Assembly (NCBI GenBank): GCA_031763025.1
Contig: JASSKH010000004.1
Coordinates: 1,240,001 to 1,304,000 of the forward strand
DNA: 64,000 bases
Reading direction: 5' to 3'
Origin: Macrocystis pyrifera
Lineage: Eukaryota; Sar; Phaeophyceae; Laminariales; Laminariaceae
Of the stretch, positions 9,077 to 62,600 are shown one piece after another (the stretch's first letter is position 1; each line of letters starts with the position of its first letter). The notes beneath the pieces were generated by a model. It was given only the letters and a program-made list of their open reading frames with translations. It was not told the DNA's origin and made no database searches. The position numbers and the translations under genes are program-made.

Positions 9077-9146
9077 ACTCCTCTGTACCAGGTATTTCAT
9101 AACGTCGTGAGTATTGTTGTATCCTGTGCATGCTATATCAAGAGCC

Positions 9147-18300: not shown

Positions 18301-21300
18301 TTATCCCTCATTACAGCAGTGACATGGTTACCTGGTACCAGGTATACAGCAGTAGGATGAAGCACAGAAATCGAAAAAAACAACGGAACACCAGCAGAGG
18401 ATGCAAGCATCCGGATTGTATTGATGACTGTACCGGGTATTCAACACTATTACGAGTAGCTGATAACCCTCACGAGGTCCACATATTTCGGCCCGAATAA
18501 CCCAAGCCACTATTTTAAAAGGGGCTCAAAGAAATACAGCAGTACTATCACGGGGCACCGTAGTAAATAGGACTAACTATTGTTAGTAAAAATAGATAAA
18601 TATATAGTTTTTTGGCTGTACCGTATGTCCTATTTACTATGGCCTCCCGTAATACTGCTGGGGTAAAAGTGTACGAGGCTGCTGTAGTAAACCGTAGTAC
18701 GAGTACGGACCCTGCGGCTGTATCGTCTCCTAAACCAGTGGCGCCGCCTGGGTTGCTACATACGCGGTATAGCCGAAGCTGTGATCGTGTAATCGCCGTT
18801 ATTTTTTGTCCCTTGTCGCCTCTGGACCCAAAATGTAAGGATGTTTTTTCTTCATTTTGATACCCACACGGTCCTTACGGTCCCAGACAGAGTACGAGTA
18901 GTATTAGTAGCTCATAATAGAATATGAGGCTGGTGGGCGTGGTGCTGCGACTCCTGTGTGGCACTCTGTCTGGAAACGATTGGAGACGATTGCCCGGTTT
19001 TGGTGGCGATGTTCATACCGTGCCCGGACGGTCCTCAACATGTCCGCGCAGAGTGGTTCGTCCTTGGTTAGAAGTTCCAACCATTGCACGATCATTCTTA
19101 GAGGTTTCAACCGTTGCAGCAATGTCGCCCGATTGCAGAACGCAGAACGCGGGCGCGGATTTTTTTTAGTGAACCGCGTTGCTGCTTGCCACCACCACCA
19201 CCACCCGCCTCCCCCGCCCCCCTTCAACCATATCCGCCACCACCACTATCCCGCTCCACCACCACCATCAACACCAACACCACTTCCTCCGCACCACCAA
19301 TACCAATACCAACACCGCACAACACAACACCACGAAACACCACACCATCGTCACATCACCAACACCACCACAACTGCAATAGTCCCCATGTCCCGTTTAG
19401 AATGACGCTCTTGTGTAGGGATCAACAGCGCTCTGCTGTGCTGGTACTGCTGTTCGTTTGGCCAAGCTCAAATCGAAGCTTGAGAATACTACTCGCACGT
19501 AACCTTGATGAGAACGCGCCCTCTGCAGGACTAACTACACTACGACTACAGTACACTGTACATGGAATTTACTGTACTAACTGTTGGTGACTACAGCAGA
19601 GTACATCTCTTACCAGTCCATCAACATCAATTTCACTACGCACATACCTTTGGTATGCTTTATGTGAAGTCGTTAGGTGAAACCCTCTCACCAACGTTTT
19701 GCTTTCATATTGCCTCATGCCTGGTACGGCAGTGTCATCTGTGCGGTGGTTTTAAGTACTTGAGTAGAGGAGACATGTTACTGCTATACCTGGTATACTA
19801 CAGTGATCCGCAGGAAGGATCGCCCAGATTGGTCGGCTTCTGGGGCTGTGAGTCGGTGAGATTTCACGAGTAACAACTATTCGGTAGGTGCCGTTAGCCA
19901 ACTAACTGACTTAAGGCGGCAAGACGGCTGGCTGGGGGGGGCGCCGAACATGCAAGAATTGTATCCCGCGTTCAGTATTCCTTCCTACAAGTATGGATAC
20001 CCTTGGATACCGAATAAATCAGAGGGTCGGCACCTCCGGAAAACGACTAACTTTTCCGGCCAATAATCTTATTTTGGGCCAGGCTCAACTTCTTATTGTT
20101 GCCATTGTTATTGCTACTACACTGCTATAATGTAATAGGCAGGGCGTGTCCAACTCTAATTTCAGTATTTTCAACGTGGTTTACCTATTCTGAAAGTAGA
20201 ACATTTCCGTCAGCCTTCGACGCTACCGTGTAGCTCGAGAGATAACACACACGCCCTCGGATGACTTTCGAAGCTCATTCTTTTCCCACAACGAGGAGAT
20301 CGCTGAGGCTGAGTGATGTCTGCCATGGGATGGCGTTGACGAGACCTTTCCAAAGCCGCCGACATCTTCGCCGTGTGTGCCTCCCTTGTTTTGAGGAAAA
20401 TCGGTAGGGGAGGCGGTGTTGTCTGATCTCCCGTGTGATACGGCAAGTCAACTATTTCTATTTAATAGCTATTAGTGAGGCTTTTTCGGCCGCTCGCCCG
20501 AAGTCAAAACACCTACAGATCGCGATGTAGATACTGTATAATCTCGCCGGGAATCAATCGCTCAGGTCAGCAAGATAAAATAGATGATACAGCACAGGCC
20601 TGTCAACAAGGCGACACGTGATGTTACATGCAGTGTGAACGAGCCTTGTGACCTTGTTGTGTCACCTTCCTTCACCAACATGGACCTTAGGCTACCCGTA
20701 TTCTATACCAGGTACCTGGTACCGCCGGATAGGATTTACAGTGGTGTAGCTCTCGCCGTTTTGCTCGATTTCTCATTCCGAATTTCTTGGCGTTCACCGA
20801 AAAGCGCGTCTTACGTTCTCAGTGGGTTTGTTTCTTACCCGTGGGGCTGCAGTGCACGACAAGAAGTACCCACTTTACCTATTCATAGTATCCCTGTTAT
20901 ATGTTTCGTGTACTATTCGGGCCGAAAATTGTACCCTCCCAATTTCTGAAGTGATACCGTATTTTGTGTATTCCTTTCGGCGTCACCGGGGGTCACCTTT
21001 AACGGGAAGACTATCCAGGTAGTGCGGTCCTGTTTTTGCAAGCTCCTATTTTTCAAGTACGCCCTTGTATTCCTTTCGGTATAACCGCGGGTGACCGTGT
21101 ACAGGCGATGCGTTCCCACTTTCTCAAGTAATCCTGTCGTTTTCCTTTTGTTGCCACCCGCAGGACACCGTTATCGGGACCATCCAGGCGACACAGTCCC
21201 AAGTTCTTTTATTCCAACTTCTCAAGTATCCTGACGTAGTACGTTCGGCGCCCCACAGGTTACCGCTAACGGGAGGACTATCAAGGCGGTTCAGTCCCCA

Positions 21301-24300
21301 GTTATCAAATTCGCAGCCGTTTCCTGATTTCGAATTTCTGAAGTTCCTGCTTCGCAAGTACGGCTTTGTTTATAATCCGTTTGTCGCGTCTACGCATGTC
21401 GCTGTGAACGGAAGGATTGTCCAGGCGGTGCAGTCCCAATTTCTTAATTTCCACTTTGCTATGTGCCGTATTCCTTTCGACGTCACAGCGGGTTGCCGTT
21501 TACCGGGAACACTCTGAAAGCGATGCAGTCCCAGTTTTTTAGATTCCATCTTCTTCAGCAAAATGTTGCATTCCTCTTGGCGCCGCCTGCAGAAGACCAT
21601 TATAACGGGACGACTGTCCAGGCGGTGCAGTCCCAATTTTTTCACGTCCTAAGTTTCTTATATTTCACTTCTCCGGTTGTAAATTTCTTTCGGCGTCGCC
21701 TTTGATCACCGTTCAAGGGGAGACTATCAAGGCGGTGCAGTTCCTACTGTCCGAACTCCAAGTTAGTAAGCACTGTTTGTACCAGGTAGTTCTTTCGGCG
21801 TCAACGCTGACAGAAATGCTATCAAGGCGGTGTCGTCCCAATTTCTTAAATACCAGTTTTCTTACCAAACACCATTTCTAAGTGCTGTTTCTTACCAACC
21901 CATTTCTTAAGTGCTGTGATCCTTTCGGTGCCCCCACTGGTGACAACGGAAATACTATCCAGGCAGTGAAGTCCCTGTTTCTTAATTCCCATTTTTTTTT
22001 AAGTACTGTGTTGCGTTCGGCGTCTCCGCAGGTTGCCGTTAACGCAAATATTACACACCTTCGACAGGTCATGACCTATCTGTATTCAGATAGATCATCT
22101 AGTTCCTCGCTTGCCGTTCTGAGGTGCTGTGCAGGATCTGCACATTGTACGGATCCAACCTATAGGAAACATGACCTAGATCATGCAGATTAAACGTACG
22201 GCTCCCACCCGGCAACGTGATCTAATTCTTACGATATCGGGGGTAGATATTCCTCGAAAGGTCTGCAGTAGATCATGAAGTGGGAACGATCTGTTAGATG
22301 ATCTGTACCTCCAGGTTTGACAGATTGTCATGACGGTTCATCCCACTTGGTTACGAAATCCCCTTGGGCTTCAAAGACTTGGCTTCGCTTCCGTTCTGAG
22401 GACAAAATACTTGGAATAGGAGTCAGATTTAGGTTTTTATACAGTGCTCCGTAATGGTAAAAGGGCTAGCTTCCGTTTTTTTAGCTGCCAGTTTAGCAAT
22501 CCCCAATTTCTTAAATGACGGTTTCTTAATTCCCTTTCGGCGCCGCCACAGGTGACCGTGAACGGGAAGACTATCCAGGCGGTGCAGGGGCAGCGCCTTC
22601 GTGATGTCGTACTGGCGGCGAAAGCGAAGATCGAGTACGGCTGCGAGAAGGTAAACGATCGACTACTTATTCACTCGTGCGTTTTTATTTAATTTTTTTT
22701 CTGTCCCATTTGTTATCCTCGCCCTTCTTTGTCTCTCTCCCTCCTGTTGAGTCGTAACTCCAATCTGGGCTCACATAGTAGGCCCTTTCCCCCCCTCCCC
22801 ACTACGTACGGTTCGTGTCTTGCTGCGTTTTTGTCACGAGGAAACTTCGGACCCTTTCTTCCCTCGTCGACTCGCGTCGAATGGCTTGTTGGATACAGTG
22901 TCGAAAGTGTCGACGCATCGAAGTGTGGAGCGTTTGACACCTGGTATACCGTGGGTGCTGCGACAGAGACTCCCGAGATCAGCCTGCTAAGATCGATTTC
23001 GTACGACTGCGAGAACGTGAACGGACCAGTAGGGATTACAAGTTTTTTCGATAGGACGCTTCCTGGAATATTCCTGCGGTAGGGCCCATAAAGAATGCAG
23101 CACGGTCAACGTACTGCTGTGTGCTCGCACCATTGATGGACGGTTCGATAGGAGGTTGTTACGGAGTCAAATGTATTGGTTCTCTCTGTGTTGCACGCGA
23201 CGCCTCTTTGGCGACCTTATCCCCCCGCCCTCAAGGCAATGTGAAGTGCGACTGTTGAAAAGGGCGGTGAGCATCTCGCACAGCACACGGCACACACACG
23301 CACGCTGCTCCAATTTTATTATTATATTTCTTGCGGATGGGTAAAAATACTGCTTGACACTTCCACATCCATGTCGTTTGTCGTCTCTAGGTCTGAAGTA
23401 CATGCGTATACAGAACTACCGTACGCACGACACGCAAGATAACACACAGGCTGAGACGATTTTCTCCGAGACATGAAGGGGCGCACACATCGAAAATGGT
23501 GGCTTAGGAAGGATCTCGTGAAACATCTCGTCAGAGATCTTTCCATAGACGTATGTATGGAGGCGTTTACGCTCTCCCCGTTGCCATTAAAAGCAGCTGT
23601 GGAAATTCGTCCCAGGGGGCTTGTGGTCTCATCGCACGTACGTGTGGTAGGGTGGTAGACCGACCGGCTGCCGCGAGCGTACGTTATACCGGGACACTTT
23701 ACCACATAACATGCTACTTGGTGTATCGTATACCTGGTACCAGGTATATCATATCAGCATGACGCCACAGGCTTGCGTATTTGGTATCGAGAATCCGATC
23801 GTATTAGGACTTGTCTCATGACGTCGCATCACACCACAACACATGATATCACATCACATCGCACCCGGATAATATCACAGCCCGTCACATCAGACCACAT
23901 CACACCGCACCAAATGACAACCACATCATTTCCTGGTAGCATAATACCGGGTATCACAGATTTCCCCATAAAGTCACACCAACCTCATGCTGGGTCACAT
24001 CGCAATACATCACGTAATAATATTACATAAGTCGACATATGTTCCCACCACATCATATTACGTCACACATCACATTTATCACATCTTTCCCGCATGAGAA
24101 TTTGCCCCACATGAGAATTCGGGTCTGGCCCAAAGTATAAGTTCGTTATTTTTAACAGGTGCCGCGTACTAGCTATTGTATTGTGGTATTTCACACGCTG
24201 TGATGAATTCCCGAGCCGACGACCGCAAAGACGCGAGTCATCGTACCCCCCCCCCCCCCCCCCCCGAGACCGATTCCGAAAGCTCGATTGTTCCACAAGC

Positions 24301-27029
24301 GAGAGGGTGCCAAAACCCAATGCAGAAGAGAGTGGTTTTGGAAATACATCGCGGAGAGCTTTCCTTAGACGAGTCGGTCTGTTCTTGTCAGCCTCTTGGT
24401 TGTGGAGCAATCGGGCTATGAAAATCGATCCAGTGGGGGGTGGGGGTAGGGGTGCCATGACTCCCATCCTTACGGTATACCAGGTACCAGGTATTCCAAA
24501 CACATGCCTCAACTCGTTTAGGACTGTTTTGGAGGCAAACTACTTGGAGTTGGAGTGGCCTGTTCCCTAAACGGGACAGCATTCCTGAAAGGCGTCGAGG
24601 GGGGCGCGCACAACAAAAATGGCGGCTTTTGGCAATAAATCACGTCGAGAGAGATTGCCGGAGACGACAAATGCATCGCTCTGCGTTTACACTCTCCTCT
24701 TACCGTTGTCGAAAAAATCAGCCTGAAAAGTTATGTCCCCTTCAGGACTCCTACTTGTACACATCGACCAAAATTACAGTATGGTAGTTTTTTTTTCTGT
24801 TTTTATTTTTTATTTTTTATTGCGACCGTCCACGATCAGCGTGAGCGGCGAGCGGTAGCGGTGTGCTGATATATAGGATCGTGTTGCGCCCGTGGCGCGC
24901 GTCTCCTTGGCGTTCAACGGTTGCAACTCGGACATCGATTTGTATCCTCCCCCCGACCACGCGATGGCCGTTTGCTGTAGCTGTGCACTCGTAGCCGTCA
25001 AGTTTTGTACCATCGACAATTTTGGTCTTTGAAGGCCCCAAGAAGGCTGAGCGTTCTGCGGTACGTACGTGAGTGCTTTGCCGTCACGTGCTGAAAGGAA
25101 TATCTCGCGTCCGCGGAGATTTCCGAATCTGATTTTTCTGGGGGTGCGTGTCCAGCTGTTTCACTATTACGGAGGGCCATAGTAAATAGGATCAAATATT
25201 GTTGGTAAAAATAGGTAAATATATAGGTTTTTGTGTGTACCGTAGGTCCTATTTACTATGGTCCTCCGTAATAGTCGAGACTTGTCCCACGGCGGTCAGG
25301 GTTGCACATTCTCTGTCTTAATTTTTTCTTCACCGGTTACCAGGTACGGGTTATATAAACTAAAAAATATGCCAGGTACGGGTTATATAGGAGTATGATA
25401 CTGCAGTGTTTTACTATTAATAGCACACTTCGGGGTGTTTATCGAAGGACTTATACGAGGTACATATATATATATATATATATATTGCGCCCCGGAGAGC
25501 GAGAGGAGACCCCTGTCCACACTTCTTTCTCAAGTTTTCGTGTACCGGTTCGAACCCGGTTCGTTTCTTCCACCTTACTGTAGGCGGGCCTGTCGCTGGC
25601 CGTCCGTGCCGTCGTTAAAGTGTGGCTTTCTCCGAAGATGTAGGCACCTGTACATATATATATATAATATATATGTATACTTCAGTAAGCTTGCAAATAT
25701 TAGTTTTGAGCATATTTTCGATCTCGTAGGTTCGTTTTTTTTGTTTTTCTTCGTACGTTATATATGTACTTGTACCGCATGGAAATATTGATGGGGGTGG
25801 CGCAAACAAAATTGTCGCAGTCGTGGTTCGGGTGAGAGACGTAGAGCTCCTCGTGTGGGGACCTCAGGAAACAGTAAGGTGCCACCCTTACTCGGACAGG
25901 TCACGATCTTCCTCATCTACAACAATAGACCGTACAGATCGGTCGGTTGGGACGTACTGCACTCAATGGCCATGAATGTACTAAAGGTTATCGCGTGGAA
26001 ACGTGCACAGACCACACAGATCGTACCAGATCAAAACGCAATGTGCTCACAAACCCGGGCACGCGCTTGATAAAAAGTCGCCACGCTTGCGCAGATCGTT
26101 CAGATCTTGTGGATCAGCCCCGTGGGATCGTTTGCAGATGATGCAGATCGGTGAAAAATGATCTGTTATTAGATGTGACCTGTGTTTGTGCAGTGATCTG
26201 GTCCATCCGACGTGCGAATCCTTGCATTGAGTTGCCACGCGAGAAAAAGGAACCAAGTATCAACCGAAACAGGCAAGCGATCAAGCGAACGAACACACGG
26301 CAGAGGGCAGACCCGTTGGTTGGACCACTCCCACCTGTTGTTTTGTAACTGGAAGTTGTGTCGGACAAACACCCTGCGTCACATAAGAGTAAGAGCTCGA
26401 AGCCCGGCCCAGCAGAATGATATTTTCTCAGGCGGTGAGTTTCTTAAGCGGTGATTTTCTTCAATAGTATCGCGTACTGTGCCGTCACCACCCTATTGCC
26501 ACTGCAAAAATGAGTCAAGTCTGATTTCAAGTGGTTTGTCCCCCGACAAGAGTGTGGTATACTGTAGTCCTGAAGGGCTTTAGTGGTACAGTAACGGTTC
26601 CTCTATAGTGCCGGTTGAGTAGTGCCGGTTGCCCCCTATAGTGCCTGTGGAATCGCTTGGCGCACATGGGATTCACCAGTGTGGCCATTTGCGAAGTAAT
26701 TAGTGCCGGTTGGTTGCCGCTATATAGTGCCGGTATTGTTGGCTGGCGCATATATGCATACCGGCATTTCGGAGGGATCATCACTCTATATCTGATCTGT
26801 ATCGTAACTTCGTCCTGTCGACTCACGTCGCCGCTACTCCCTCCGTCTATACTCGGGCTTGCTCGGTTGCTGGCTTTCTTGCTTGCTTGCTTTATTGCTT
26901 TCTTGCGTGCGTGCTTGCGTGCGTGCTTGCTTACTTGCTTTTGCTTGCTTGGTTTCGTTTGCTTGCTTGCTTGCCGCCCCTTCCTCCGTTTTTATTCGCG
27001 CTTGCTTGCTTTTGCTTGCTTGCTTTCGT

Positions 27030-31633: not shown

Positions 31634-31868
31634 GACAGATCATCTACAGATAGATCATCTAAATCCTAGTCTGCCGTTCTGAGGTGCTGTGCAGGATCTG
31701 TGTGGTACATACGGATCTATAGCTGATAGCTCCCACCAGGCGAAATGAGCTATAGATCATACATATCATACAGATTGGGAATATACCAGGTAGGTATCTA
31801 TCTGGCCTGAATGATCTAGATCATGAGGTGGGAATTATCTATCTGATCTGTCCAGGGTTTGGAAGCGA
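31634..31868. mobile_element. Family D, copy 2
   Basis: Same order of motifs, with GTGCTGTGCAGGATCTGTGT and GCTCCCACCAGGCGAAATGA; carries a TACCAGGTA near its right part. Confidence 0.75.
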
Positions 31869-41600: not shown

Positions 41601-44600
41601 CCTGCCGCTGCCGCTGCCCCTGCCTCTGCCTCTGCCTTTGTCTCTGTCGTTGCCTACTCGGACCCCTCTCCTCCTCCTCTTCCTCCTCCTCCTCCTCCTC
41701 CTCTTCCTCGTCCTCCTCCTCCTCCTCCAGAAACTTCCCGCGCCAGCCGGTTCCCGCCGTTCTCCTACGCTGGCGCCGCCCATTCCCGGCATTCTCCCTC
41801 TGCACCCCGCGCCTACTGCTCACATCCCCTCCTTCTTGCCCCCTTCTCTTCGCTATCTCCTCTCGTCCTTGCCTAACCTCTCTTCCCTCGTCGCCGTACC
41901 GTGAGCTTGCGCTCGCGCCACCACCGCCTCCGCCGCGTTGACGCCCTCCGTTCGCAGAGTGCGCCGCCTCTCCTTTGCGCCTTTTTCGACCTCCCTTACC
42001 ACCACCTCCGCCGCCACCGCCGCTCCCACCCTTGCGTCCCACGTTTGAGCTAGATTTTCGTTGCTGCTGGCCCCTGCTGTCATCGCTGGGGGATGCGTCG
42101 TCGCTGCTTGATGCTGCTGCCGCGGCTGCAGCTGCCGCGGCTGCTGCTGCCGCCGCCGTTGCTGTGCCGTCTGTGGTGGCGGTCGGGTGAGTCGGAAGAA
42201 TGCACGCGGGAGGGAGAATGGGTTGGGTTGTTCTGGGTTGCTAAGCTTTCGTGTACCTCGTTCTTGAAGTAGCACTACAGAAAAAAATATATACTTGCCG
42301 AAATCTCTGCCGCCGCTGCGGGAGCGTTGTCTGCAGCAGCGGCTGGATGATAAGGGGGGTACCTGGTATTTATTAGGGGGATTACTATTACGGGGTCCAT
42401 AGTAAACAGGACCAAATATTGTTAGTAAAAACAGGTAACTATACAGGTTTTTGTGTGTACCGTAGGTCCTGTTAACTATGGTCCCCCGTAATACTGTAAA
42501 TTTGGGGGTGCCTAGTTTTGGAGTCGGTACTAACCATACAGCAGTATAGCGGTTTCAGCCCGAAAGGAGGGCGGGCTTGCGGGTGCCTCGCCCGTATGAC
42601 AGCGCTGACCCTTCACTTCATCATGCCTCGTCCTCGTGATAACGCTAACCTTGTGATAGCGTAGCTCTTAATAGTGTACCAGCGCACGTCAATTTCTCAA
42701 AATGATCGAAATCAATCAGCGCACACAAGTTTGACTAGAGTTACCAATATCCTGCTGCGCGAGATACGGCCTACAGCAGTATGATACATCTGTTTATATG
42801 TATACTGGTATACGAGCACCATCATCTTAGTAACCATGAAAGATCGCGAGCAGTAGACATTACCACATACCAGGTATAATACCACATACCTGGCACCAGG
42901 TAACGGATACCGATACCTGGATTTACCACACCCAAAAGCTGACGGTTCTTTAGTCAAGTATTCACATTACTAATATAACGATAGCAGGGATGCGTGTGGC
43001 GCGCAACGCGAATGCTCAAGTTCGCATCCCACGCGCCTTTCGCAAACTTCGCGCATTTCGCGGAATCTCATGTAATTGATTTATAAAATTCTCAGTAACG
43101 TAGTTACTGGGCTCTGTGAGCACATAAATTAAATCCCCAAATCGCCTGTTTTTCAACTTGAAACTACAACGCAATACGTCAGCTGTGAGTAAGAGAGAGA
43201 GAACACATAAAATAGCCCCTGGTTAGAAATGCCTCAATATGTACTGGAAACCCCATTTTTCCCTGGAATGGGGTGATAAGTGTTCCATCCCCTGTATCAA
43301 CGCCTTCCAATAGTTGCGTTGCCCCTCGCACTTTTGGCTAAATTCGCCATTCGCAGTTAGTTAGCCGTAACCAGCCGTAATACGTACCGGCCTTACGAAC
43401 CAGGTACCAGGTACCAGGCAGTTCCTGGTATATACGCACCGCCGTATACTCTGCACAGCGGTATCCTGTGTGATCGGGATAGGGGCTCAAAGTTGAATAT
43501 CACTTTGTCCGGAAATGTAAGTAACCTTTGGGTATTCATCTTAATAACCAAACGGTTGTTAAAATTCCGGACATCAGCGGTACGTCAAGTACTTTTCAGC
43601 GCAACAGCCAGCAGCCACAAGAGAAGATACGTACAGAGAACAAATACTGGGTATTGATAGTAATACATACCACTCTGTCCGAAAATGTAATGGCCGTTTG
43701 GATATTAATATTTATACTTTTGGATACTAGTAGAAACATCGACACGGTCCTTACATTTCCGAACAGACGAGTACCGCCAATAATTGCGCCAACCCCGTGA
43801 AGCCATTTCATAAACCAGTCGTACCAGGTACCTGGGACCTGGTATGGCGTTTCAGTTCAAAAATTCTAAAAAAAGCTGAACCATGATGTTGTGCATCAGG
43901 CGTTGCATTCTCCGAACGAGCGTGAACATGTGATGACGCCTGGTGGGAACAAACAATCGATCGCAGAGCAGCGGGCATAGGCATGCCTTTGCGAAACGAC
44001 CGAGCCGATGGATATCGGACGAGAGCCGGGTGCCTCACCGGCAAAAAATACGAGACGTACCGAATACCGATAGTGATCCTGCTGTTACGTCGTTGTATAC
44101 ATAGATGTATCATACCACTTTGTCCGTAAATGTAACGACATTTATATTTCCATATTAATACGTACGTGGTGATTACATTTACGGACAGAGCGGTGGCGCT
44201 TTCGACGGAGAAACTGCCGAGATCAAGGAGACAAGAGAGTATTTTCTGAGATAAGGAAATGCTGTCGACAGCCAACCCGGCCTTTTGAGCGATCGAGATG
44301 ATCCTTCGTGGCGTCGTGCCTTCTTTCATAGGACAGGGGACGCTCTCGAGCTTTGGTGGTTTTGCTGGGTCGGCGGGCGGGCGTGCACTCGCATACTCGC
44401 ATTTGCGACTTTTCGACGCAGCGCATGCAGTGCGAACGAGGAGCATGGGCGGAAGATGATCGCGTGATCGGGCATCACACCAAAACGATGTCAGTATGTA
44501 CGAAGGAAGGCACAGCCGATGCTTGGGCTTTTGCATGCTAAACGAGAGTGCGCCAGGCAGACTCAACCAAGACTTCGGACAAGACCTAAACAGGCTACCG

Positions 44601-46785: not shown

Positions 46786-47281
46786 GTGGGTGTGTTATCT
46801 TAGGTGTTACACTCGTACGGTAGCTATATATATATATATAGCTCTAAGCCGCGTCCAGGCTCCATCCCGACGCCACGATAACGGGACGTGTGAATCTGTC
46901 GCATAACCCCCCTCCAGCTTCTTCAAGCGTCTTCTTGGTGATCCTGTAGTTGAAGCTTGAAGCGTGAAGCACCCTTTTACATTTACAAAACAAAATTTAT
47001 AAAATATTATACTGGTACCAGGTAAGGTACTCCTCGGGTTTTCTGGACGTACACACCTGCAGCTCAGGGGTAAAAAAAAACGGCGCCGTCGGCAGGAATG
47101 GGTTTTGCGAGCGTTGAGCTGGCTTGGTTCGATCTTCACGTCCTGCCGTCGACGCCAAGAGATAATGCATCTCTGTAGACCCTTGAGCTATACTCTCTGA
47201 AGATTGGCCAATAAAAACGAGCTGCTGGCGAAGAGAGGTCAGATAATAAATTATCCACCAAGGAAAAGCCTGCGATAGGCC

Positions 47282-50040: not shown

Positions 50041-50864
50041 CACCAGCACCATGTTGCCACATTGCACTCTGGTGCCACAACAGTGTACAAATCTACTGGC
50101 ACAATGATCTCACACTGTTTCCAAGTCGCTTGGCCCCGAAAACGTTGGTGCAGTTCTTAACCCCTTCGAAACCGCACCCACATTTTTGTAGGTCAATTTA
50201 CTTGGAATTAGTGCGGTTAATTTTTTTTTCAGTGGCAAAAGTTGGAAAAAAAAAAACATCGCGTCCCGTAAACCCGCTTTCTCGTCTGCCCCGACGTAGG
50301 AAAAGCTCATCATGGTTGCCGTACATATGATACACCACAGGACACCTATGAATACCAAGAAGACGATCCCTGCGCAAGAAAGGCCGGCCGAGATCTAAAG
50401 GATAATAAGAAATTCGGGGCTCGTTTTCGTTTTGAAGTTGCGTAGAAAACGCACTGATTCTCCTGTAAGAAACCCCGCCCGGACCAGCTTTCCTGTTACC
50501 TGCTGTTTCTACCTGGTAGGTGTCTTGTACGGTACCGATACAACACTTTGAACAAACGTGCTATTGTATACCAGGTGCCTGGTACAGTACAACGCGTTAT
50601 AGCGTTATAACCTACTGCACACGGCGTCATAGCTTGCAGCGAACCAATCCGTCTTCGTCAACAACGCCATGGCCGTGCGCCTGCACCTTAACGAACAACG
50701 TACCACCATTTTCAGTCATCGATGGTCTCGAAGTACTGCTAGTTCTGCTACTACCGCTACTGCTACTGCTACTGCTACTGCTACTGCTACTGCTATTGCT
50801 ACTGTCGCCGTTGCTACAATTGCTGCCGCTGTCGCTGCTGATACTGCCAGGGCTACTGTTGTTA

Positions 50865-51106: not shown

Positions 51107-54100
51107 CTGCGATATGCGGGCCAATCAGGGCAACATAACGACACGCGGGGGTGGGGGGAGGGTTGGGGTTCTAATTGTCATGCATCGTCGATGTCTCAAG
51201 TATGACCAAAGACCCGCGCATCCTTGCATTGCCGGGGCGGAGCACGTCGGGTTTTCACCGTCCAGACAAACATTGCTTGTACCAAGCGAGAAGCGCTGTG
51301 AGTTGTTCGGCGAGTTGCGTGAAGGGTGAGTTGCATCGTGCTAAGAACTACTCGTGAGGCGGGTTTCGCCACCTTGTACGTACTTTCTTGAAATGGCAGC
51401 GTTGAATGAATTGCGGGGGGGGGGGGGGATACTCATTATCATGCATGGCTGTAGTCGTATGACCATGGACCCTTGCATCCCTACATTGCCGGGACGGAGC
51501 ACGTCGGGCTTTCACCGACCAGGCAGACATTGCTCGCACCAAGCGCACAGCGCCGTGAGGTGTTGGGAGAGTTCGATTGGTCCAGAAATGCCGTTTCTGT
51601 TACGGGAAGAGAGAGAGCAAGAGAGAGCAAGGTCGGTTCCTTTTACATATTTTGATGTGAAATGTGAACCCACGTTCTGGGGGGCAAAACTTGGAATTAG
51701 TATGGGATGCTGTTCTTGCAGTTCTAAAAGTGTCTACTAATAGAAACGCATCCGGCACGGCTGCAGCATAACAAGTGCATGTGTTGTTAAAAGCCATAAA
51801 AGGAGAACCGTTTAGGGCTGTGAATCGGAGCGAAAAGTCCACGGAACAAAAATCACGAATCGGCGAAAAGCCGATCAATCGCTTTTTTTTAAAAATAAAT
51901 AGTCTCGCCTGATTTATCGACATATTTGGGCGACCAAAGCGAGCCGAGGGCTCGGCTGGTGAGGTTGGTCAACGTAACAAATTAACCGGTCAAAGGCGAT
52001 ACTTCGAAGTATCGGTACGTCAGAAAACGATCGGCTCGGTTTTTCGATTTGGATGCCGATTGAATCGGATTAATCGGCTCCGATTCACAGCCCTGTACAG
52101 AAAAGTTAAAAAATATATAGTACATGTATGTGTGGTCCTTCCTTCCTGCCGACGACACCAATATGGGGCCGACGCCCCGGGCAGGTTTCTATCTCTCTCT
52201 CTCTTTCTCTCTCTCTCTTGTGCGTTTGTTGTGTGGGGAGTACACACCGAGGAAGGTGGGTCGAAACCTCGTGTCTACACGGAACGGAGTGATAGGCCTT
52301 GCTTGGGTGCGACCTTGAACTTGTGTATAATGAGGCGGTGCTATCTAGGGGAAGGGGACCTGGTATCCACATACAGGACACCTATTCATGAATTCCCCAG
52401 GTTACTGGGTATCTTCTACAAGAAAAAATCCGGACGTGTCCGACGAAAAGCGTGTCCGGCACCCCTCCAAATCGCCATAAAACGCGGTATACCGGTGGTT
52501 ATTACGCCAATTGACGGTAGAAAATCATCCCAAGGCCCAACAAACAAAAAAAGGGAAAATGCCGTTTTTCTGTCACGGCATACCGTTTTCTGCCTAACGG
52601 CCCTAAACTGCCTAGTAAGAAGCTGAACTCGTACTGACCCAGGCCGGATTTCTTATTTAAGAATGGGTGCGGTCCACACTAATGTCAGTATAAAGATCTC
52701 CGGGTTTCTTTTTTTTCTGCAAATTTCACCTTGCCTTTCTTAGAGACCGCCTCCTTCGTATATGCCAGGTACCAGGTACCAGGTACCAGGCAAGTCATAG
52801 TATAGTTTTCCTGCATTATACTTGAGGGTCTGCCCTCCCCCCTCCCCCTCATCGTAGGGAGGTGAAAGTCTATGGACACACGACTATGGGCATGCATGGC
52901 ATGAATACAACCGCCCCGCTCGTCGTCGCAACCCCCCCCCCCCCCCTACATGGCTACATGGCCTTCGAGCGCAATAACATGCGTTTGATTTCTGTACACG
53001 ACAGGAAGCACTCACCGTCTATGTTGAGCACCACGAGGTCCGGGAATCCTCGCAGGTGCTGCGTGAGCCACAACGGGAGGTAGGTCGCCTGCGGAAACAA
53101 CGTCACACCATCAACAAATTTAGGGCAGAATAACGCGACCAGTTCAGGGATCATTAACACACCAGCAAGAAAATTGAGGGCAGAAAACGCCGAGAAAAGG
53201 GATTTCGCTGCTTCAGCTTAACCCTCTTTTAGTACTGCAGTTCCGTTTTGGGGACAAACCACTCCATTTTTGAGTGGTTTGTCGCCAAAACGGGACTGCA
53301 CTCCTAAAGTATGCCAAGCGACTGAAATGTAAGAAAATTCGGGATACAGATGGACTTGAGAGGTGTTCCATCTGCCACGATGGGCGAGGGTCTGAGGCAA
53401 GCAACGACGACCAGAGCTGTGATTTGGAAGACTGAGAATCGCCACCTTTTGCTGTAGGTAATACAGTAGGTGGCTAGGTACCGTTGGTTGCAGCGGAGCC
53501 AACTATCCGACTATTTGGGTTTCCGTGTGTATGTAAGGCTTCTTTGCTACTGGGCGGGAGACCACTCGCTCAAAGGAGGGAAGGAGGGCTGAGAGGTCTA
53601 CGAAACACATGGCGCATCAAAAAGCCATCGCCATCGAAGGCGCAGGTGCCGATGGCAGTGCCCAAGACAGTTGATGCTTAATTGATGGCATTTTTTTTAT
53701 GTAAAACAACGCGAAATGTCGCCAGCCGACTAGTCAACTAAAGTCAGTTAGTTGGCTTTTTTCGCCAGCCAATCAATAGCTATCCGGGGAGTCCAGCCAA
53801 CTTACAGCCCGAACGATGATCGTTTTTGAAGACCAGACAGTCCCCGGGGTAGGGCTGTGAGTCGGTAGGGCTTCACGACTACCACCAACTAGTCGATAGG
53901 TGCCGTTAGCCAACTAACTGACTTTAGTCGGCAAGTCGGCTGGCGAAGCCAACTGATGGCCAGTCGCCTTGTCGTTTACCTGCCGGGCCTGCGCTATGGT
54001 GGTGGCAACGAGATAGCTCACGTGGTGGTAAAGGACTCTCTCGGAGCGCTCCAGCCCGTCCACCCCAGCCACGTCGCCGACTGCTCCGTCTAGCAGCGGC

Positions 54101-57100
54101 CTTCCGGCCGCCCAGACTGGTTTGAACAGCAGCGGTACCGCCATGGAAGCCGCCAGCGCGTCTGCAGCGCTCCCCTCGGAGAAAACCTTGGTCTTGCCCC
54201 TACGCACACGAATAGGCGAGAGATGTGCCGAGACATGTGCGGATCTGCTTCGCCAGTCGCCTTTACATACGGCTTGGCCCAGTCTCGACAAAACGGTTGA
54301 CAGCCCACATTAAATCTTACTTTCGTCATCACATCACAGCGAAAGACGCGCGTACGATAGGGGTACCAACTGTACCCAAAATTGGCAAAAAAAATTGTGA
54401 CTGTATCTCATTTTGGCAAACATGTTTCTGACAGCTGGGGCTTCTCAGCTGACAACACTCCCCCATATGGTGTTGTTTTTCGACAAATATTTCTCGATAT
54501 AAACCTGCTTACTGTAGTAGGGCAGGCGATTGCTTGTCGGGTTAAGCGTACAGCATTTTCTTACATTCGTTTTTGGGGTGAAATACATACAGTAGCTTCG
54601 CAAGCGAGGCTGAGTCTCAGCGAATCGCTGGTGCACGTATCCGTACAGTAGCATGCGTCAGTATATACTAGAATTATGCTATTACGGGGGACCATAGTAA
54701 ATTGGACCAAATGTTGATAGTAAAAGTAGGTAAGTATAAACCAGGTACCTGGTAGGTTTTTGTGTGTACCGTAGGTCCTATTTAATACGGCCCCCCGTAA
54801 TAGTTATACCGTAACCCAGTGGGTGTTTTTTTCTGACGTACCAAATTACCACTATGTCCCGAAATATAAGCACCTTCGATTTAAAAATTAGTGTAGAACA
54901 GGTTCTTATATAATGGGACAGAGTGGTACAGTAGTTCACGTAGTAGCGCTGTGAATCGCAGCCGATTTGAGATGATTCAATCGTACGATTCGATCGACAT
55001 CGGAATCGCCAACAAGGGTGGCGATAGGTTCATGACGTCTTTTACCGGCTATACTGGGCCCCTCGCCAACCGCGTGCGGGGGGGGGGAGGGGGAAGGGGG
55101 GGTCATTGGGGCTCTAAGCGAGCCGGTTCATTTAATAGAGTCGATCAACCGGCTTCGCCGAAACCGACGTATAATTAGTCACACCTCGAACAGACAGATG
55201 ATGTACGGATAGATGATCTACAGATAGATCATCTACCGATCGATCATCTACAGATAGACCATCTACAGATAGATCATCTACGGTAGATCCTAACCTACCG
55301 TTGTGATAGGTTGTGCAGGATCTATATGTACAGTACAGGTCCAACCCAGGAGGAAACATGCGCTAGATCATGCAGAATAAACGTACGGCTCCCATGCGGC
55401 ATCACTAGCTACAATGGACCACACAGGTGAAGTAATATTGTATCTCCCCTGAAAAAGGCAGATTATGATCGAGCGAGAATCGATTATCTGTTCCAAGCGC
55501 GAAATAAATTGATTTTTCGCTCCTACTCACAGCCCTGTAGTTTATTTACCTGGTGATGTCGAAGGCCGAAACCAGAACGGGAATCGCATTCTCGTCCAAA
55601 TCAGGGACGGCCTGTCCTTCCAGGATGCGTTCCAGCAGCTCGCGAGTGGACTTGTGGATGTTTACCACTCCCGGAAGGAAATTCCGAGAAAGCAGAGACG
55701 CCCACATGATCGGATTCCTTGTTTCACCCGCAGCAATTTGCGCACGGGAGTGGGCGGGGGGGGGGGGGGGGGGGGGGGGGGTGTACTCATTTGTTGCTTG
55801 CCTTACTGTAGTCGTTTGACTAGTGACCACACCTCCCTTTCGAGACGGAGCACCGTTCCTATTCCTACCATTAGAGATACCTCCAACATTTAGGCGTTCA
55901 GCACGTTTTTTTTCCATGCACATCAATATTACAGAGAAACTTTTTGCTTGCCTTATAGCCTTCTGTAATGATCGCACACGTACGATCTACTATTTAATAG
56001 ACGTTTCCGTTACTATTAGTAGCACGTGACGTGATCTCATACTCGTAGTACGTATCTGCCTGTCTCTTCATACAGATACAATCTACGGAGATGTTTCTGA
56101 TAGTAACACGTCACGTGCTATCCTACTGGTACCTATTGCACCGCCTTATAGCTACTGGTACGTGATAACATCACACTTCCTGTTTTGCCGCCTGTGGCCA
56201 CCATCTATCTCCTAGTATGACAGGAGGGGGGCTTATAATATGCGCGGAGGAAAGCACGAGTGCCCGCACGATCGACCGCTCGATGTGGGTGGGTACTGCT
56301 GTACTTTTTTTTTGAGGCGTGCTGCGACAGGAGCACTGTACCTTTTTTTTTGCCGAAATGTTTCTGACTGACGGAGCTTCTCAACTTAGGAACTCCCCAA
56401 TATCGTCGGAACAGCCTTCGTGAGTCTACGTTATCATAAATGTGCTTGCGAAGAATTTGATGGAACCGATTTGGTTGGGTTTCTTATAGACTGTCTCCGA
56501 CAAAGTAATGAACCGTACCCATGGAATCTTCCTAGGAGTTAACCAAGCCCCAAAAAAGTTGGGGTAGAGGTTAGAAGTGGCATGGCGACAAGCAGGAAAC
56601 CACACGGCCCCGTGCTTGGCTAAATCTTCTGGGACTCAGGAAAAACAATCAAAAAGAAATTGGTGAGCTTAAGCTCTGTTTATACCAATCCGCTGGGGGC
56701 TAAGACACAAAACACAAAAGCAAGAGATGCGTGGTGTCAGCAACCGTCTCTAGGGCGAGGGTGAGCGATCAACGGTATGAGTACCACTGCTGTAACTGTT
56801 TTTAGGGCATGGGTATATAATAGGGACCTAAACAGCGAAACGCGCGGGCCTATCAACCTTCCAGATCTCTGACAGACTATCGGTTCCTACTCGATTGTCT
56901 ACACATGTTCAGGGCAGATAGACGTCTTCTTGATCTGTATTATTTAGCTCATGTTGCAGGGTGGGCGCCGTGTATTCAGCATGGTCTAGGACATGTTTCC
57001 TGGGTTGGATCTGTACTAGAGAGGTCCTGCACAGCGCCACAGAACGGCAGGTTAGGACCCCATATGATCTAGATCATGATTTATCTGTAGATGATGTATC

Positions 57101-59463
57101 CAACATATTGCAGACGTTCTAGGAGGAGCGTGCGACAGTGCAGTACGTACACACCTCCTTCCTCAGTAGCCTGAGCTCAAGTCGTGTGGCCGACACGGTC
57201 ACTTCGTTTCGACACGTTCCCCCTCTGAAGTCCGATAGAGACCACTATTGCGGCGGGCCAAAGTGCTACATTGTAAGCAGAACCCTTGATGGAACCAAAC
57301 ACCATGTATCCCGCTTATGTTCAGACAATATATTTGGTTCTGATTACTATTAATAGAGCAGTATGTTCTCCAGAAAAGTACCAGGTAGGATGTTCTCCAG
57401 CAAAGCAGGTATCGTGCACCAGCGTGTGCCGCAGTGTCCTGCGGTGTAGCCCCTCCCGCTATTACACGTGTCATCCCTAAACCCAAGAATCGTCGGGTTG
57501 TATTTCGTTTGGCCGATGCCTTATCTAGGCTTTCATCCGTTATCTCGTTCATCCGTTATCTCGCAATTATTTCGGCGTAATTGGGCGTTTTCAAGGCCAC
57601 AAAAGTAGCATAAGTGGGTTTGTTCGTTTTTTGGCGGGGATTCGACCATATGCAGCATAATTGGGGGAATACGTGATACTCATGGCAGATCATACTTGGT
57701 ACTTTTTTAATGCTCCTTGTTAATAAAAAACCGTAAAACCACGAAAACAAACAGAAAGGACGTAGGCCTAGCCGTAACCGCCATTTATATTTTCGTCTCT
57801 TTGCGCCTCTCTACGAGTTAACACTGTTTCGATATCGTAGAACCTTGGCCCAGCTGCGAAGAAAAGGTTGACACATATTTGAACGCTTGAAATATGCTTA
57901 AAATGCTGAAATATGCTCCAGTTTAAGAACTAACCCCGACTCTACCGTCTGAGAATTTTCTGGAAATGAGTGTGGACTACCAGACGTTCTGTCGAAGCTG
58001 GGGCAAGCCGTAGACACCGCCGGTCCTCAGGGCACACCACGGCGCGCCTGTCCCATTGCCTCGGCCAACATATAAGCCGGTGGCAAAATGCACACTTACA
58101 ACTCTCCGGCTTTGGCGTGCGTAGTTCTTTTTTTCGTGGGTCTTGTTGCATGTCCATTCTTACGGATAATTGTAGAGGGCATTGATTTCACGCTCGTAAG
58201 GAAGCACAGGATTGCACTGGTCTCTGCGAGGGCGCTCATTCGGGACAACAATGAATTGCTAGTGTGTTACCGTATGCTGGTAACATTTGCAAGATAGCAC
58301 ATCCATCCCATGTGACGAATTTCGGAGTCGATTTTCTCCGAAATTGGAACGTGGAAGTGTGGTGAGCTTAAGCTGTATTCTTACCAATCCGCCGGAGGAT
58401 TTAAAAAAAAAAAAAAAAAAAAAAAACTCCGAAACAAGAAGGGACACACGAAATTGGTGTCCCTGGGAAAAAGCTCGTCGATAGGTTTTCCATAGAGGCG
58501 TCGCTCGGGCAGTTGCACCCTCCTCCTTGGCGAGAAAATCGGCTCGGAAAGTCCTCCGAGGGGATGCGTTACGTTATCGCACGTGTCGCACGGTGTTATC
58601 TCACAGCACGTGTTGTGCGGTGTGCTATAACATGAAACGCGTTGTACTACAAACAGACCCTGTGAACAAGAAAAAAAAGAATTGTCCACCCAAACTACGC
58701 CTCCCTACAGCACTCTCCATCCATGGAATCGATTGGCTTTTGATAGTCCGACCGCGTATACTTGAGTCGGCAGTCGATGTGCTTGTTAAAAAGCATCTCG
58801 CGGTTCCAGGGGGGGGGGGGGGGGGGGGGTAATTGGGTATTCTGGGGGACCATAGTAAATAGGACCTACGGCGCACACAAAAACCTATACATTTCCCTAT
58901 TCTTACCAACAATATTTGGTCCTATTTACTATGGTCCCCCATAATGGTTAAAATCTTCACAGGTAGCTCAGGGGACTATTATTAGTACCTTACAATCACG
59001 CAGGGGATGCTTTGCTTTGCTTCGGCTCGTTTCGACACATGAGAGCAAAAAGACAGCGCCAAAAAATCGCGCTGCTGGCAAATTAATGTTCTTGCGGTCG
59101 ATGGAGAATGCACTCGGAGGGGCGCGGCCACACGTCAGAGAGATAGATAATCTACAGATAGATCGTATAGATCATCTAGATCCTAACTTGCCGCTATGAG
59201 ATTATGTGCACGATCTGGATTGTACAGATACAACACAGGAAATACGTGCTATTAATAGGTCATGTCATGTAGACTATACGGTTCCCACCCGGCAACATGA
59301 GCTAGATCATCCAGATCATCCAGCATCATCCAGATCAGGAGCATGTATGTCCAGAAAGATCTAAATCATCAACTGGGGATCGATGGTGTGTTCGACGTGT
59401 GGGCGCGACCCACCTGGCCTCTGCTCGCTGCATGACCTCTCTCAGCCTGTCCGCGTCCATCGT
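50865..59463 (-). CDS. Patatin-like phospholipase, C-terminal five exons (partial)
   Basis: Minus-strand join 59463..59414, 55717..55550, 54199..53980, 53088..53016, 51106..50865; about 250 codons, with every junction in phase. The reading has the patatin order: D-A-D-R-L-R-E-V-M-Q helix, S-T-R-E-L-L-E-R-I-L, I-P-V-L-V-S-A-F-D-I-T-R-G-K, then A-A-S-M-A-V-P-L-L-F-K-P and R-P-L-L-D-G-A-V-G-D. The D-G-A Asp is the family's catalytic aspartate. The glycine-rich oxyanion loop and G-x-S-x-G nucleophile elbow should lie upstream (above 59463); I did not find them, so they may be beyond 64000. Patatins hydrolyse acyl chains of membrane or storage lipids. The C-terminus is Asn/Gln-rich. Confidence 0.87.
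51146..51320. repeat. Family K repeat 4
   Basis: G-rich start, then TCATGCATCGTCGATGTC, GCATTGCCGGGGCGGAGCAC and CCAGACAAACATTGCTTGTA. About 40 bp upstream of the last patatin exon. Confidence 0.7.
51415..51572. repeat. Family K repeat 5
   Basis: A 14-base G run, ATACTCATTATCATGCATGG, CTGTAGTCGTATGACCATGG, GGACGGAGCACGTCGGGCTT; close match to K4. Confidence 0.75.
51814..52094. mobile_element. hAT-like MITE with 18-bp TIRs
   Basis: Left end AGGGCTGTGAATCGGAGC and right end GCTCCGATTCACAGCCCT are exact inverted repeats, 281 bp apart. No coding capacity. Confidence 0.75.
52862..52946. repeat. Family K repeat 6 (reverse)
   Basis: ACGACTATGGGCATGCATGG and a 16-base C run at its right end. Lies in the same patatin intron as K4 and K5, in the opposite orientation, about 70 bp after the donor at 53016. 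Confidence 0.6.
53016..53088 (-). CDS. Patatin gene exon
   Basis: 73 nt between strong sites TTTCCGCAG| and AGACG|GTGAGT. Encodes A-T-Y-L-P-L-W-L-T-Q-H-L-R-G-F-P then D-L-V-V-L-N-I-D. The phase-1 end joins the last exon as N-I-D-G-L-P-Y-L-N-P. Confidence 0.85.
53221..53311. repeat. Foldback repeat GCAGTCCCG, copy 3
   Basis: GTACTGCAGTTCCGTTTTGG and CCAAAACGGGACTGCACTCC; partial relatives at 50143-50222 and 51680-51733. In a patatin intron. Confidence 0.7.
53717..53960. repeat. Inverted pair related to the AGGGCTGTGA family
   Basis: 53851-53960 (AGGGCTGTGAGTCGG ... GCCAACTAACTGACTTTAGT) and 53717-53812 (ACTAAAGTCAGTTAGTTGGC ... TTACAGCCC) are inverted copies. A third copy is at 19843-19945. 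Confidence 0.7.
53980..54199 (-). CDS. Patatin gene exon with catalytic Asp
   Basis: Acceptor GTGCGTAG|GGGC and donor CGGCAG|GTAAAC. Encodes G-K-T-K-V-F-S-E-G-S, A-A-S-M-A-V-P-L-L-F-K-P-V, then R-P-L-L-D-G-A-V-G-D with the catalytic D-G-A. A dispersed repeat ends about 20 bp from the donor. Confidence 0.88.
54679..54803. mobile_element. MITE M, copy 10 with internal insertion
   Basis: Middle reads TATAAACCAGGTACCTGGTA then GGTTTTTG where others have ATATATAGGTTTTTG; otherwise complete. In a patatin intron. Confidence 0.9.
54851..54931. mobile_element. TIR element family T, copy 4 (TA flanks intact)
   Basis: TACCACTATGTCCCGAAATA ... TATAATGGGACAGAGTGGTA. The best copy for reading the TA target duplication and the CCA/TGG ends. 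Confidence 0.82.
54945..55537. mobile_element. hAT-like element carrying a nested D element
   Basis: Ends AGCGCTGTGAATCGCAGC and GCTCCTACTCACAGCCCT; D copy 3 lies inside. Located in the patatin intron just downstream of exon 55550-55717. Confidence 0.6.
55185..55430. mobile_element. Family D, copy 3, with 15-bp tandem repeats
   Basis: Left end expanded into five near-identical 15-bp units (CTACAGATAGATCAT). Inserted inside a hAT-like element (54945-55537) in a patatin intron. Confidence 0.8.
55550..55717 (-). CDS. Patatin gene, second visible exon
   Basis: Acceptor AAACAAG|G and donor ATCACCAG|GTAAAT. It encodes 55 whole codons, N-P-I-M-W-A-S-L-L-S through I-P-V-L-V-S-A-F-D-I-T, typical of the patatin central sheet. 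A K repeat with a 25-base G run lies about 40 bp upstream of the acceptor. Confidence 0.85.
55757..55920. repeat. Family K repeat 7
   Basis: A 25-base G run then GTACTCATTTGTTGCTTGCC, TTACTGTAGTCGTTTGACTA, GAGACGGAGCACCGTTCCTA. About 40 bp upstream of patatin exon 55550-55717. Confidence 0.75.
56900..57100. mobile_element. Family D, copy 4 (reverse)
   Basis: Contains GACATGTTTCCTGGGTTGGA, GGTCCTGCACAGCGCCACAG and ATGATCTAGATCATG, the reverse of the family order. Confidence 0.75.
57476..57560 (+). pseudogene. Possible remnant of a Ty3/gypsy RNase H end
   Basis: A short frame reads R-V-V-F-R-L-A-D-A-L-S-R-L-S. A-D-A-L-S-R is the hallmark at the end of the RNase H domain in Ty3/gypsy polyproteins. 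Nothing else of such an element is readable around it. Confidence 0.3.
58318..58580. repeat. A-tailed repeat joined to repeat F copy 5
   Basis: GAACGTGGAAGTGTGGTGAG, CTTAAGCTGTATTCTTACCA and ATCCGCCGGAGGAT then a 24-base A run; repeat F (GGTGTCCCTGGGAAAAAGCT) follows. The A-tailed part recurs at 48606-48690 and 56660-56720, suggesting a retroposon. Confidence 0.6.
58839..58946. mobile_element. MITE M, copy 11
   Basis: Reverse copy next to a 20-base G run; ends diverged. Confidence 0.85.
59138..59372. mobile_element. Family D, copy 5
   Basis: Family motifs plus GTGCTATTAATAGGTCATG where other copies have GCTAGATCATG. Ends about 40 bp from the patatin exon at 59414. Confidence 0.75.
59414..59463 (-). 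CDS. Patatin gene, first visible exon
   Basis: 50 nt between TTGAGCAG|ACG and GCCAG|GTGGGT. Encodes T-M-D-A-D-R-L-R-E-V-M-Q-R-A-E-A, the short helix that follows the nucleophile elbow in patatins. The phase-2 end joins the next exon as Arg. Confidence 0.7.
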
Positions 59464-60363: not shown

Positions 60364-60558
60364 TAGGTGCCATATACTGTATAGGTGCTTTATTTTGTAT
60401 CCCAGGAGGTGCTATCAGGATAATACGATATAGGTACCGTATACTCTGTACCGGTAGGTGCTACCAGGTATATACTACAGGATATCTGGTATAAACTCTA
60501 CCGGTATATACTATTAATATATATATCAGGTATGTGTTATATATACCTGGTATATATA

Positions 60559-61702: not shown

Positions 61703-61813
61703 CTATCACGGGGGACCATAGTAAATAGGACCAAATATTGTTAGTAAAAATAATTAAATATGTAGGTTTTTGTGTGCACCGTAGGTCCTATTTACTATGG
61801 TCCTCCGTAATAG
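61703..61813. mobile_element. MITE M, copy 14
   Basis: Complete copy, 23 bp from copy 15. Confidence 0.9.
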
Positions 61814-61836
61814 TGATGCGTCGATCGCGCGTACTA

Positions 61837-61949: not shown

Positions 61950-62202
61950 CGGGTTTTATATTGGTCCCATGCAGGAAGTACACTCCGTATATGAGGAAGA
62001 CAAATCTGAAACTGCAGAATTCAAGGAATGGGTGTTGCTACTGTACTGCTGTGAATGAGGCTGAAACGCCGGTAATTACCTGGGCTCAGGCATTGGGATC
62101 GTATTTATTGTAGTACTTGGGAGGCGTATCTGAGATGGAAAACGAGGGGTTTCCCCAGCGAGGCACGAGCCTTGCTCTCAGTCTCCACCGTACTACTCAG
62201 TA

Positions 62203-62290
62203 TCCCGCCGTTCAGAGGGGGTGAGAGTGTTACAAGGATTACCTTGGGCTGGGTGATCGATCGAGCTTTTACCCCTATAGCTCAGTAGGT
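62203..62290 (+). repeat. Duplicated block, copy 1 (intact box A)
   Basis: Starts ATCCCGCCGTTCAGAGGGGG and runs to CTATAGCTCAGTAGGTAA. It matches 62477-62575 closely apart from a 7-base insertion in the second copy. Confidence 0.8.
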
Positions 62291-62347
62291 AACATCTTCA
62301 CATTCGGCGTCGTCGAGGACACGGGTTCGAATCTCACTTCGAACGCT
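62271..62347 (+). tRNA. tRNA-like sequence with box A and box B
   Basis: TAGCTCAGTAGG fits a pol III box A and GGTTCGAATCT fits box B at normal spacing. Stems are imperfect, so it is probably a tRNA-derived repeat. It sits in a duplicated block whose second copy (62477-62600) has an interrupted box A. Confidence 0.35.
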
Positions 62348-62476
62348 CTTTTACAGAAACGCTTGCGCGTGCGCCCCTGTAAACAAGCATATCTCCCTGG
62401 TTCCCCAGATGGTATTGAAACGAAGCGGGTAGGTCAGCGTACGGGTGTACCAGGTATAGGGTTCCGACGCCCCAAA

Positions 62477-62600
62477 GATCCCGCTGTTCAGAGGGGGACA
62501 TAGTGTTACAAGGATTATCCTGGGGTGGGCAATCGATCGATCCTTTACCCCTATAGCTCAGTACCAGGTAGGTAATACCATCACAGCAGTGTGTCTATAT
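62477..62600 (+). repeat. Duplicated block, copy 2 with inserted CCAGGTA
   Basis: Same as 62203-62290, but box A reads TAGCTCAGTACCAGGTAGG where copy 1 has TAGCTCAGTAGG. The extra bases turn a TA into TACCAGGTA. A CACAGCAGTG motif also replaces copy-1 sequence shortly after. Confidence 0.8.

Follow-up and report, generated by a model that had tools for sequence, protein, structure and literature searches.

Among DNA transposons, Minos-type elements leave footprints of four bases, CGAG or CTCG, the end of the Mos1/mariner element starts with CCAGG, and the central A or T left by Sleeping Beauty and Tc1 is the resolved mismatch of their CAG tails. The 3-nt 3' overhangs of Sleeping Beauty are described as becoming the footprint through end joining (PMC7827188), and footprints of 2–4 bp are given for the Tc1/mariner group (PMC7913693). 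In the brown alga Ectocarpus, 17 Tc1-mariner families with 11,912 copies, mostly non-autonomous, have been reported (PMC12477816). The present analysis deals with a short palindrome, TACCWGGTA (W being A or T), in a stretch of 64,000 nucleotides from the kelp Macrocystis pyrifera (assembly GCA_031763025.1, contig JASSKH010000004.1, positions 1,240,001 to 1,304,000), which is referred to as the window. With a probability of roughly 0.8, the palindrome is the excision footprint, or scar, of a cut-and-paste, TA-targeting DNA transposon with ends starting 5'-CCAG(G). Compared with the Sleeping Beauty and Tc1 elements, the kelp scars have a main footprint of 5 nt instead of one derived from a 3-nt overhang, and they are known without their element.

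A palindrome gained at TA

TACCWGGTA occurs 40 times in the window, 24 times with a central A and 16 times with a central T, whereas 100 dinucleotide shuffles of the window hold a mean of 0.60 and a maximum of 3. The over-representation claimed in a preliminary description, which had counted about 36 sites by eye, is thereby confirmed. It also holds genome-wide (537,376,219 bases in 223 contigs), where 121,279 sites per strand, scars copied within tandem or segmental duplicates included, stand against 2,421 for a reversed-motif control, giving a density of about one exact scar per 4.4 kb. Further counts refer to a sample of 314 kb, made up of the window plus 25 stretches, each of 10 kb (seven of them adjoining it), or to one of 264 kb, made up of the window and stretches L001–L020. 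In the 314-kb sample the nine-letter motif is sharply defined and its centre alone varies, being A in 56 cases, T in 38, G in 5 and C in 3, that is A or T in 94 of 102. The density is uneven, with 64 sites in the 134 kb in or beside the window and 30 in the other 180 kb. Among the sites listed, scars recur at spacings near 400 and 1,200 bases in C1 and in a repeated block in C3, so some scars have been carried along in tandem or segmental duplicates. Literature searches for the motif, its written forms included, turned up no description of it.

The preliminary description had taken the motif for an insertion into TA on the basis of duplicated copies. In the duplicated block, TAGCTCAGTAGG at 62278 indeed corresponds to TAGCTCAGTACCAGGTAGG at 62554, the scar occupying 62562–62570. 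In this block, labelled "tRNA-like" in that description, ARAGORN with a bacterial setting called no tRNA. A second case, within a copy of the miniature inverted-repeat transposable element (MITE) named M, is present at 5790–5798. The third, beside a repeat resembling a short interspersed nuclear element (SINE), is present as well, but its exact alignment is ambiguous since it lies in a TATATA run.

MITE M, with ends near ACTATTACGGGGGACCATAGTAAATAGGACC, has 53 matches in 314 kb (window 6568–6680, 25163–25275 and 61702–61814 among others) and provides a comparison of empty and filled sites across the whole genome. At one TA of its terminal repeat (CATAGTAAATA/TAGGACC, with 3–28 bases allowed between), 347 matches were obtained on the two strands and none for the reversed control. 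Among the first 100 matches listed, the insert is exactly CCWGG in 47 (CCTGG 33, CCAGG 14), and the CCWGG unit lies inside a longer insert in three more. Other recurrent inserts are CCGG and CCAG (4 each) and CAG, CTG, CTCG, CCCTGG and CCCGG (2 each), while GTAAA (7) is a duplication of MITE sequence. The 28 inserts that occur singly include CCATGG, CCAGGG, CGG, CGGG, CGCGG and several further MITE-sequence duplications. Twenty of the 47 CCWGG-filled copies (12 CCTGG, 8 CCAGG) were fetched. The insert lies in one arm in 7 and in the other in 13, and the short outer flanks differ by eye. Median pairwise identity over 80 aligned bases (189 of the 190 pairs) is 83.6% among CCTGG copies (66 pairs), 83.4% among CCAGG copies (28) and 83.3% for mixed pairs (95), next to a baseline of 83.8% (298 comparisons; best match per sample locus, a choice that leans upward). 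As both arms are used and no subfamily is apparent, the filled copies look, by sequence comparison, like separate insertions into already diverged copies. Empty and filled sites thus differ by exactly the TACCWGGTA motif in many independent repeat copies.

The scars also show a target preference. Counted outward from either TA in 75 single scars of the 314-kb sample, T is found at +1 in 49% (versus 30%), T at +6 in 46% (versus 26%), and A or T at +7 in 79% (versus 53%; p=3.5e-11, uncorrected for 12 positions). At least one side has A or T at +7 in 73 of the 75. Restricting the count to the 42 scars whose surrounding 20 bases are free of scar-like motifs leaves the preference in place (p=5e-8 for T at +6, p=9e-7 for A/T at +7). 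By reading of the sequence, the MITE M site conforms to it; at the SINE site, one of the two sides carries G at +7. The +7 preference is absent around CTCG motifs and at most weak around CAG motifs (A/T 61% versus 54%). An integrating enzyme complex would be expected to give such a preference, symmetric about the point of insertion.

The footprint reading and its alternatives

The proposed origin would proceed as follows. A transposon would insert at TA and duplicate it. When staggered cuts later release it, the outermost 4 or 5 nt of either terminus, reading 5'-CCAG or CCAGG, would stay behind at the donor site in the form of 3' single-stranded tails. These would anneal via C:G pairs with one central A:A mismatch, and fill-in and mismatch repair would yield TA-CC(A/T)GG-TA, which lengthens the site by 7 bp overall. 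With CCAG tails, a three-base overlap would place C:G and G:C pairs around the A:A mismatch and give CC(A/T)GG, a four-base overlap would give CCAG, CTGG, CCGG or CTAG, and a two-base overlap CCAGGG, CCATGG, CCCTGG or CCCGGG; with CCAGG tails, full overlap with four pairs would again give CC(A/T)GG. Tails of either length would therefore yield the A/T centre, and the data are compatible with both. The view of the preliminary description that the central A or T is a resolved mismatch agrees with the observed centres, which resolution to A or T would produce; the resolution step itself belongs, like the transposase action, the terminal sequence CCAG(G), the overhang length and the end joining, to the proposed part of the scheme.

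The minor inserts CCAG, CCGG, CCCTGG, CCAGGG and CCATGG resemble products of imperfect joining between these ends. In 314 kb, TA-flanked CCAG/CTGG is found 34 times (12.8 expected) and CCGG 19 times (4.1 expected), while CTAG is found 7 times (5.4 expected). Six-letter inserts exclusive to the A-type end number 5 (1.1 expected), those exclusive to the T-type end 1 (0.6 expected), and CCCGGG, which is compatible with both, 4 (0.2 expected), all of these being small numbers. Additionally, among the 100 listed MITE M inserts, 4 are exclusive to the A-type end and none to the T-type end. A 3-nt CCA overhang, as in Mos1/mariner, was considered and rejected: its expected product is CCATGG, not CCWGG, and CCATGG accounts for 1 of the 100.

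The likeness to Sleeping Beauty and Tc1 lies in the TA target, in terminal bases kept between two TA, and in a 3' overhang that would be end-joined (PMC7827188). Two Tc1/mariner traits are found in the kelp, namely TA insertion with TA duplication at MITE M and the duplicated block, seen through the scar and not through an inserted element, and a weak target preference that is symmetric about TA, with T favoured at +6 and A or T at +7. Of the "Tc1/mariner-type" scar proposed earlier, the TA target, the symmetric preference and an insert spectrum resembling end joining have held up; the element was not found and the footprint has 5 nt, so that the term describes a likeness to that superfamily. 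The Tc1-mariner superfamily is abundant in Ectocarpus; the words footprint and excision do not occur in the main text of that report (PMC12477816). A more specific version, which is less likely than not, is a hit-and-run transposon whose cut is staggered by 5 nt and which is nearly always excised. The genome would then keep its scars, 10^5 or more of them, but almost no copies, and each scar would rebuild the preferred target (T at +6, A at +7). Such rebuilding would help to account for tandem scars.

An unlikely alternative is a micro-insert that spreads by itself: templated or nuclease-linked repair would add a 7-bp unit directly at TA, and no full-length element would take part. The short palindromes of some mitochondrial genomes serve as a comparison. 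The lack of a TA-flanked element in the searched samples and the tandem runs of period 7, of which the two longest are all of one type, would suit such a unit. Minor classes of 4 and 6 nt with common outer bases and the symmetric +6/+7 preference are instead what transposase action followed by end joining predicts, and 5 of the 9 doubles in 264 kb combine a unit with A and one with T. Internal deletion of small elements, with both ends retained by chance and no excision, would explain the retained CC...GG ends. It is nevertheless very improbable, as broad lengths would be expected where one 5-nt product makes up 47 of the 100 listed inserts (gaps of 3–28 only, so that longer remnants could escape).

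That the 9-mer belongs to older repeat families and was multiplied along with them is hardly credible for the sampled scars. Some scars do lie in tandem or segmental duplicates (the C1 and C3 spacings; L035–L037), but the 75 single scars have unrelated flanks, with no paralogous pair at the threshold used (28 of 40 flanking bases in common), and the 20 filled MITE M copies form no subfamily. Likewise, a functional site under selection, for protein binding or methylation at CCWGG, would be in keeping with a frequent palindrome, yet the motif is seen to have been added to diverged repeats, at a TA that also took up related inserts, which makes this origin extremely improbable. If the excision footprint is the true origin, footprints can outnumber visible elements, transposon activity may be greatly underestimated where copies are the only measure, and lost or rare transposons can be sought through their scars. 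They would record transposon jumps genome-wide in brown algae, including insertion preference and break joining.

Evidence against a footprint and the search for a source

Several observations weigh against an excision footprint. The main insert of 5 nt exceeds the 2–4 bp of Tc1/mariner footprints, which is a usual trait and not a strict criterion, and minor classes of 3–4 nt do occur. At the MITE M site, T exceeds A at the centre in one orientation (33 versus 14 of the 100 listed). In 314 kb, 12 of 87 scar clusters hold 2–4 units, compared with about 0.9 expected under equal use of TA, and in 264 kb the single run of three and the single run of four contain A centres only. An incoming insertion would meet the preferred pattern in a scar, which has T at +6 followed by A at +7; target preference alone is unlikely to explain the full tandem excess, and slippage may have lengthened the long runs. 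Scars inside repeats are also few: the 15 SINE-like copies of the 314-kb sample hold none in 146 TA (0.8 expected), a genome-wide search at one TA of that family gave no inserts, and the 53 MITE M copies hold 2 in 890 TA (4.8 expected). Moreover, a TA-flanked CCAG-ended element was not found in 314 kb (ends separated by at most 7 kb, with no more than 5 mismatches over 16 compared bases), the search with TA-CCAG, TA-CCA, TA-CCT and TA-CAG ends covering the best 14 per class. Inverted-repeat pairs with CCWGG ends and TA flanks in 264 kb were scar pairs only, and no CCAG(G)-ended element was among the TA-flanked inverted repeats listed (120 of 344 pairs).

To these points are added two further searches. 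A family with CCAGGGCTTTTCSCGGG ends (L013:3295-4158, arms with 1 mismatch in 12 bases) is flanked by A/T runs and not by TA, and was rejected as the source, as a footprint of this family would lack the two flanking TA; among 26 loose matches in 363 kb, 3 have TA before them, all weak and none a pairable element end. At the MITE M site, CATAGTAAATACCWGGV, with CCWGG continued by a base other than T, was found at 21 places, 20 of which were read, and no element with such ends was recognised there, ends CCWGGT or CCAG plus non-G not being searched at this site. Nineteen of the 20 return to MITE flank sequence only a few bases on, which is how altered scars behave. Ten of these read CCAGGACC (3 from related loci), which could be a scar minus the bases separating its two GG, or a CCA fused to a flank that has been shortened, and the others have TA changed to CA, or bases gained or lost. 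The place in L026 is ambiguous, since a further MITE M copy begins there, and the 21st is the scar variant CCAGGG of the MITE M insert listing.

The age of the scars bears on the missing source. In 264 kb, 120 near-scars with one mismatch accompany 82 exact ones, versus 22–74 for nine control motifs, so many scars have probably decayed. Many are thus probably old, the source family may be extinct or very rare, and the true number of scars is perhaps about twice the exact count. Eleven of the 15 SINE-like copies are more than 89% identical to one reference, while both scar-bearing MITE M copies are less than 82% identical to theirs; this fits, without proving, an end of scar-making activity before the SINE spread.

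Other candidates and repeats were met in the search. Inverted ends CCAGGGCTTTTCSCGGGTCA, starting CCAGG and lying in A/T runs, occur at L013:3295-4158, L052:112-871, L053:1557-2388 and perhaps, more weakly, at window 2387–2495. The interpretation of MITE M as a CAGT-ended Tc1 MITE was dropped, as its ends do not settle its type. A DDE/D transposase is a further trait of Tc1/mariner; of the transposase profiles, DDE_3 gave no match in the whole genome and DDE_1 gave 39. DDE_1 frames at L047–L050 and L051–L054 belong to a repeat of more than 8.5 kb with four loci 97.9–99.6% identical in the main alignments. No link of this repeat to the scars was found, the studied stretch (>8.5 kb) not reaching the repeat ends.

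Other motifs and features of the window

Scars and related features of the window are collected below.

Table. Positions of scars, scar runs and the duplicated block in the window
Feature	Positions	Strand	Basis or remark
Scar TACCAGGTA, second copy of duplicated block	62562..62570	+	empty counterpart TA at 62286-62287
Duplicated block, first copy, empty site	62202..62287	+	repeat family D12
Duplicated block, second copy, filled site, 87% identical	62478..62563	+	repeat family D12
Scar TACCTGGTA within MITE M copy	5790..5798	+	motif count, MITE M match
Tandem scar CCAGGTACCTGGTA within MITE M copy	54741..54754	+	MITE M match
Scar TACCTGGTA, TATATA run adjoining SINE-like repeat	60544..60552	+	motif count
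Scar TACCAGGTA	60462..60470	+	motif count
Scar TACCAGGTA	62448..62456	+	motif count
Scar TACCAGGTA	2128..2136	+	motif count
Scar TACCAGGTA	3084..3092	+	motif count
Scar TACCTGGTA	3312..3320	+	motif count
Scar TACCTGGTA	4919..4927	+	motif count
Double scar TACCTGGTACCTGGTA	7811..7826	+	motif count
Scar TACCAGGTA	9086..9094	+	motif count
Scar TACCTGGTA	9580..9588	+	motif count
Scar TACCTGGTA	11011..11019	+	motif count
Scar TACCAGGTA	11541..11549	+	motif count
Scar TACCAGGTA	12602..12610	+	motif count
Scar TACCTGGTA	13321..13329	+	motif count
Scar TACCAGGTA	16877..16885	+	motif count
Double scar TACCTGGTACCAGGTA	18329..18344	+	motif count
Scar TACCTGGTA	19787..19795	+	motif count
Double scar TACCAGGTACCTGGTA	20706..20721	+	motif count
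Scar TACCAGGTA	21780..21788	+	motif count
Double scar TACCTGGTACCAGGTA	23731..23746	+	motif count
Double scar TACCAGGTACCAGGTA	24478..24493	+	motif count
Scar TACCAGGTA	25338..25346	+	motif count
Scar TACCAGGTA	31784..31792	+	motif count
Scar TACCTGGTA	42360..42368	+	motif count
Scar TACCAGGTA	42868..42876	+	motif count
Triple run CCAGGTACCAGGTACCAGG	43400..43418	+	tandem-run scan
Double run TACCAGGTACCTGG	43822..43835	+	tandem-run scan
Scar TACCAGGTA	47016..47024	+	motif count
Scar TACCTGGTA	50510..50518	+	motif count
Fourfold run CCAGGTACCAGGTACCAGGTACCAGG	52765..52790	+	tandem-run scan
Scar TACCAGGTA	57379..57387	+	motif count

Further TA-X-TA motifs stand out in 264 kb, namely CAG/CTG, CGAG/CTCG, CAGCAG/CTGCTG, CG, CCG/CGG and TCA/TGA, together with simple repeats and pieces of MITE M. 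TA-CAGCAG-TA and TA-CTGCTG-TA occur 35 times (1.7 expected), and TA-CTCG/CGAG-TA is found 65 times in 314 kb (13.5 expected). A TA-flanked element with CTCG ends lies at L007:194-1346, with the terminal inverted repeat CTCGTACCA and inverted ends CTCGTACCAYAAACTGCTGC, so that with the enriched CTCG/CGAG motif at least one other pair of end and footprint is legible in the genome, a point in favour of the footprint reading. The enriched CTCG/CGAG motifs and the CTCG-ended element resemble the Minos type, which differs from the CCWGG class in end sequence and length; the CTCG motifs also lack the +7 preference.

The SINE-like repeat, about 300 bp long, has 15 matches in 314 kb, including window 9147–9467, 11858–12177, 60559–60858, 60953–61252 and 62823–63122. 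The window additionally holds an open frame with a CW-type zinc finger at 41413–42240 on the minus strand (PF07496, E 1.2e-14), and a tandem array with a 24-base period and long open frames on both strands at 37675–38226.
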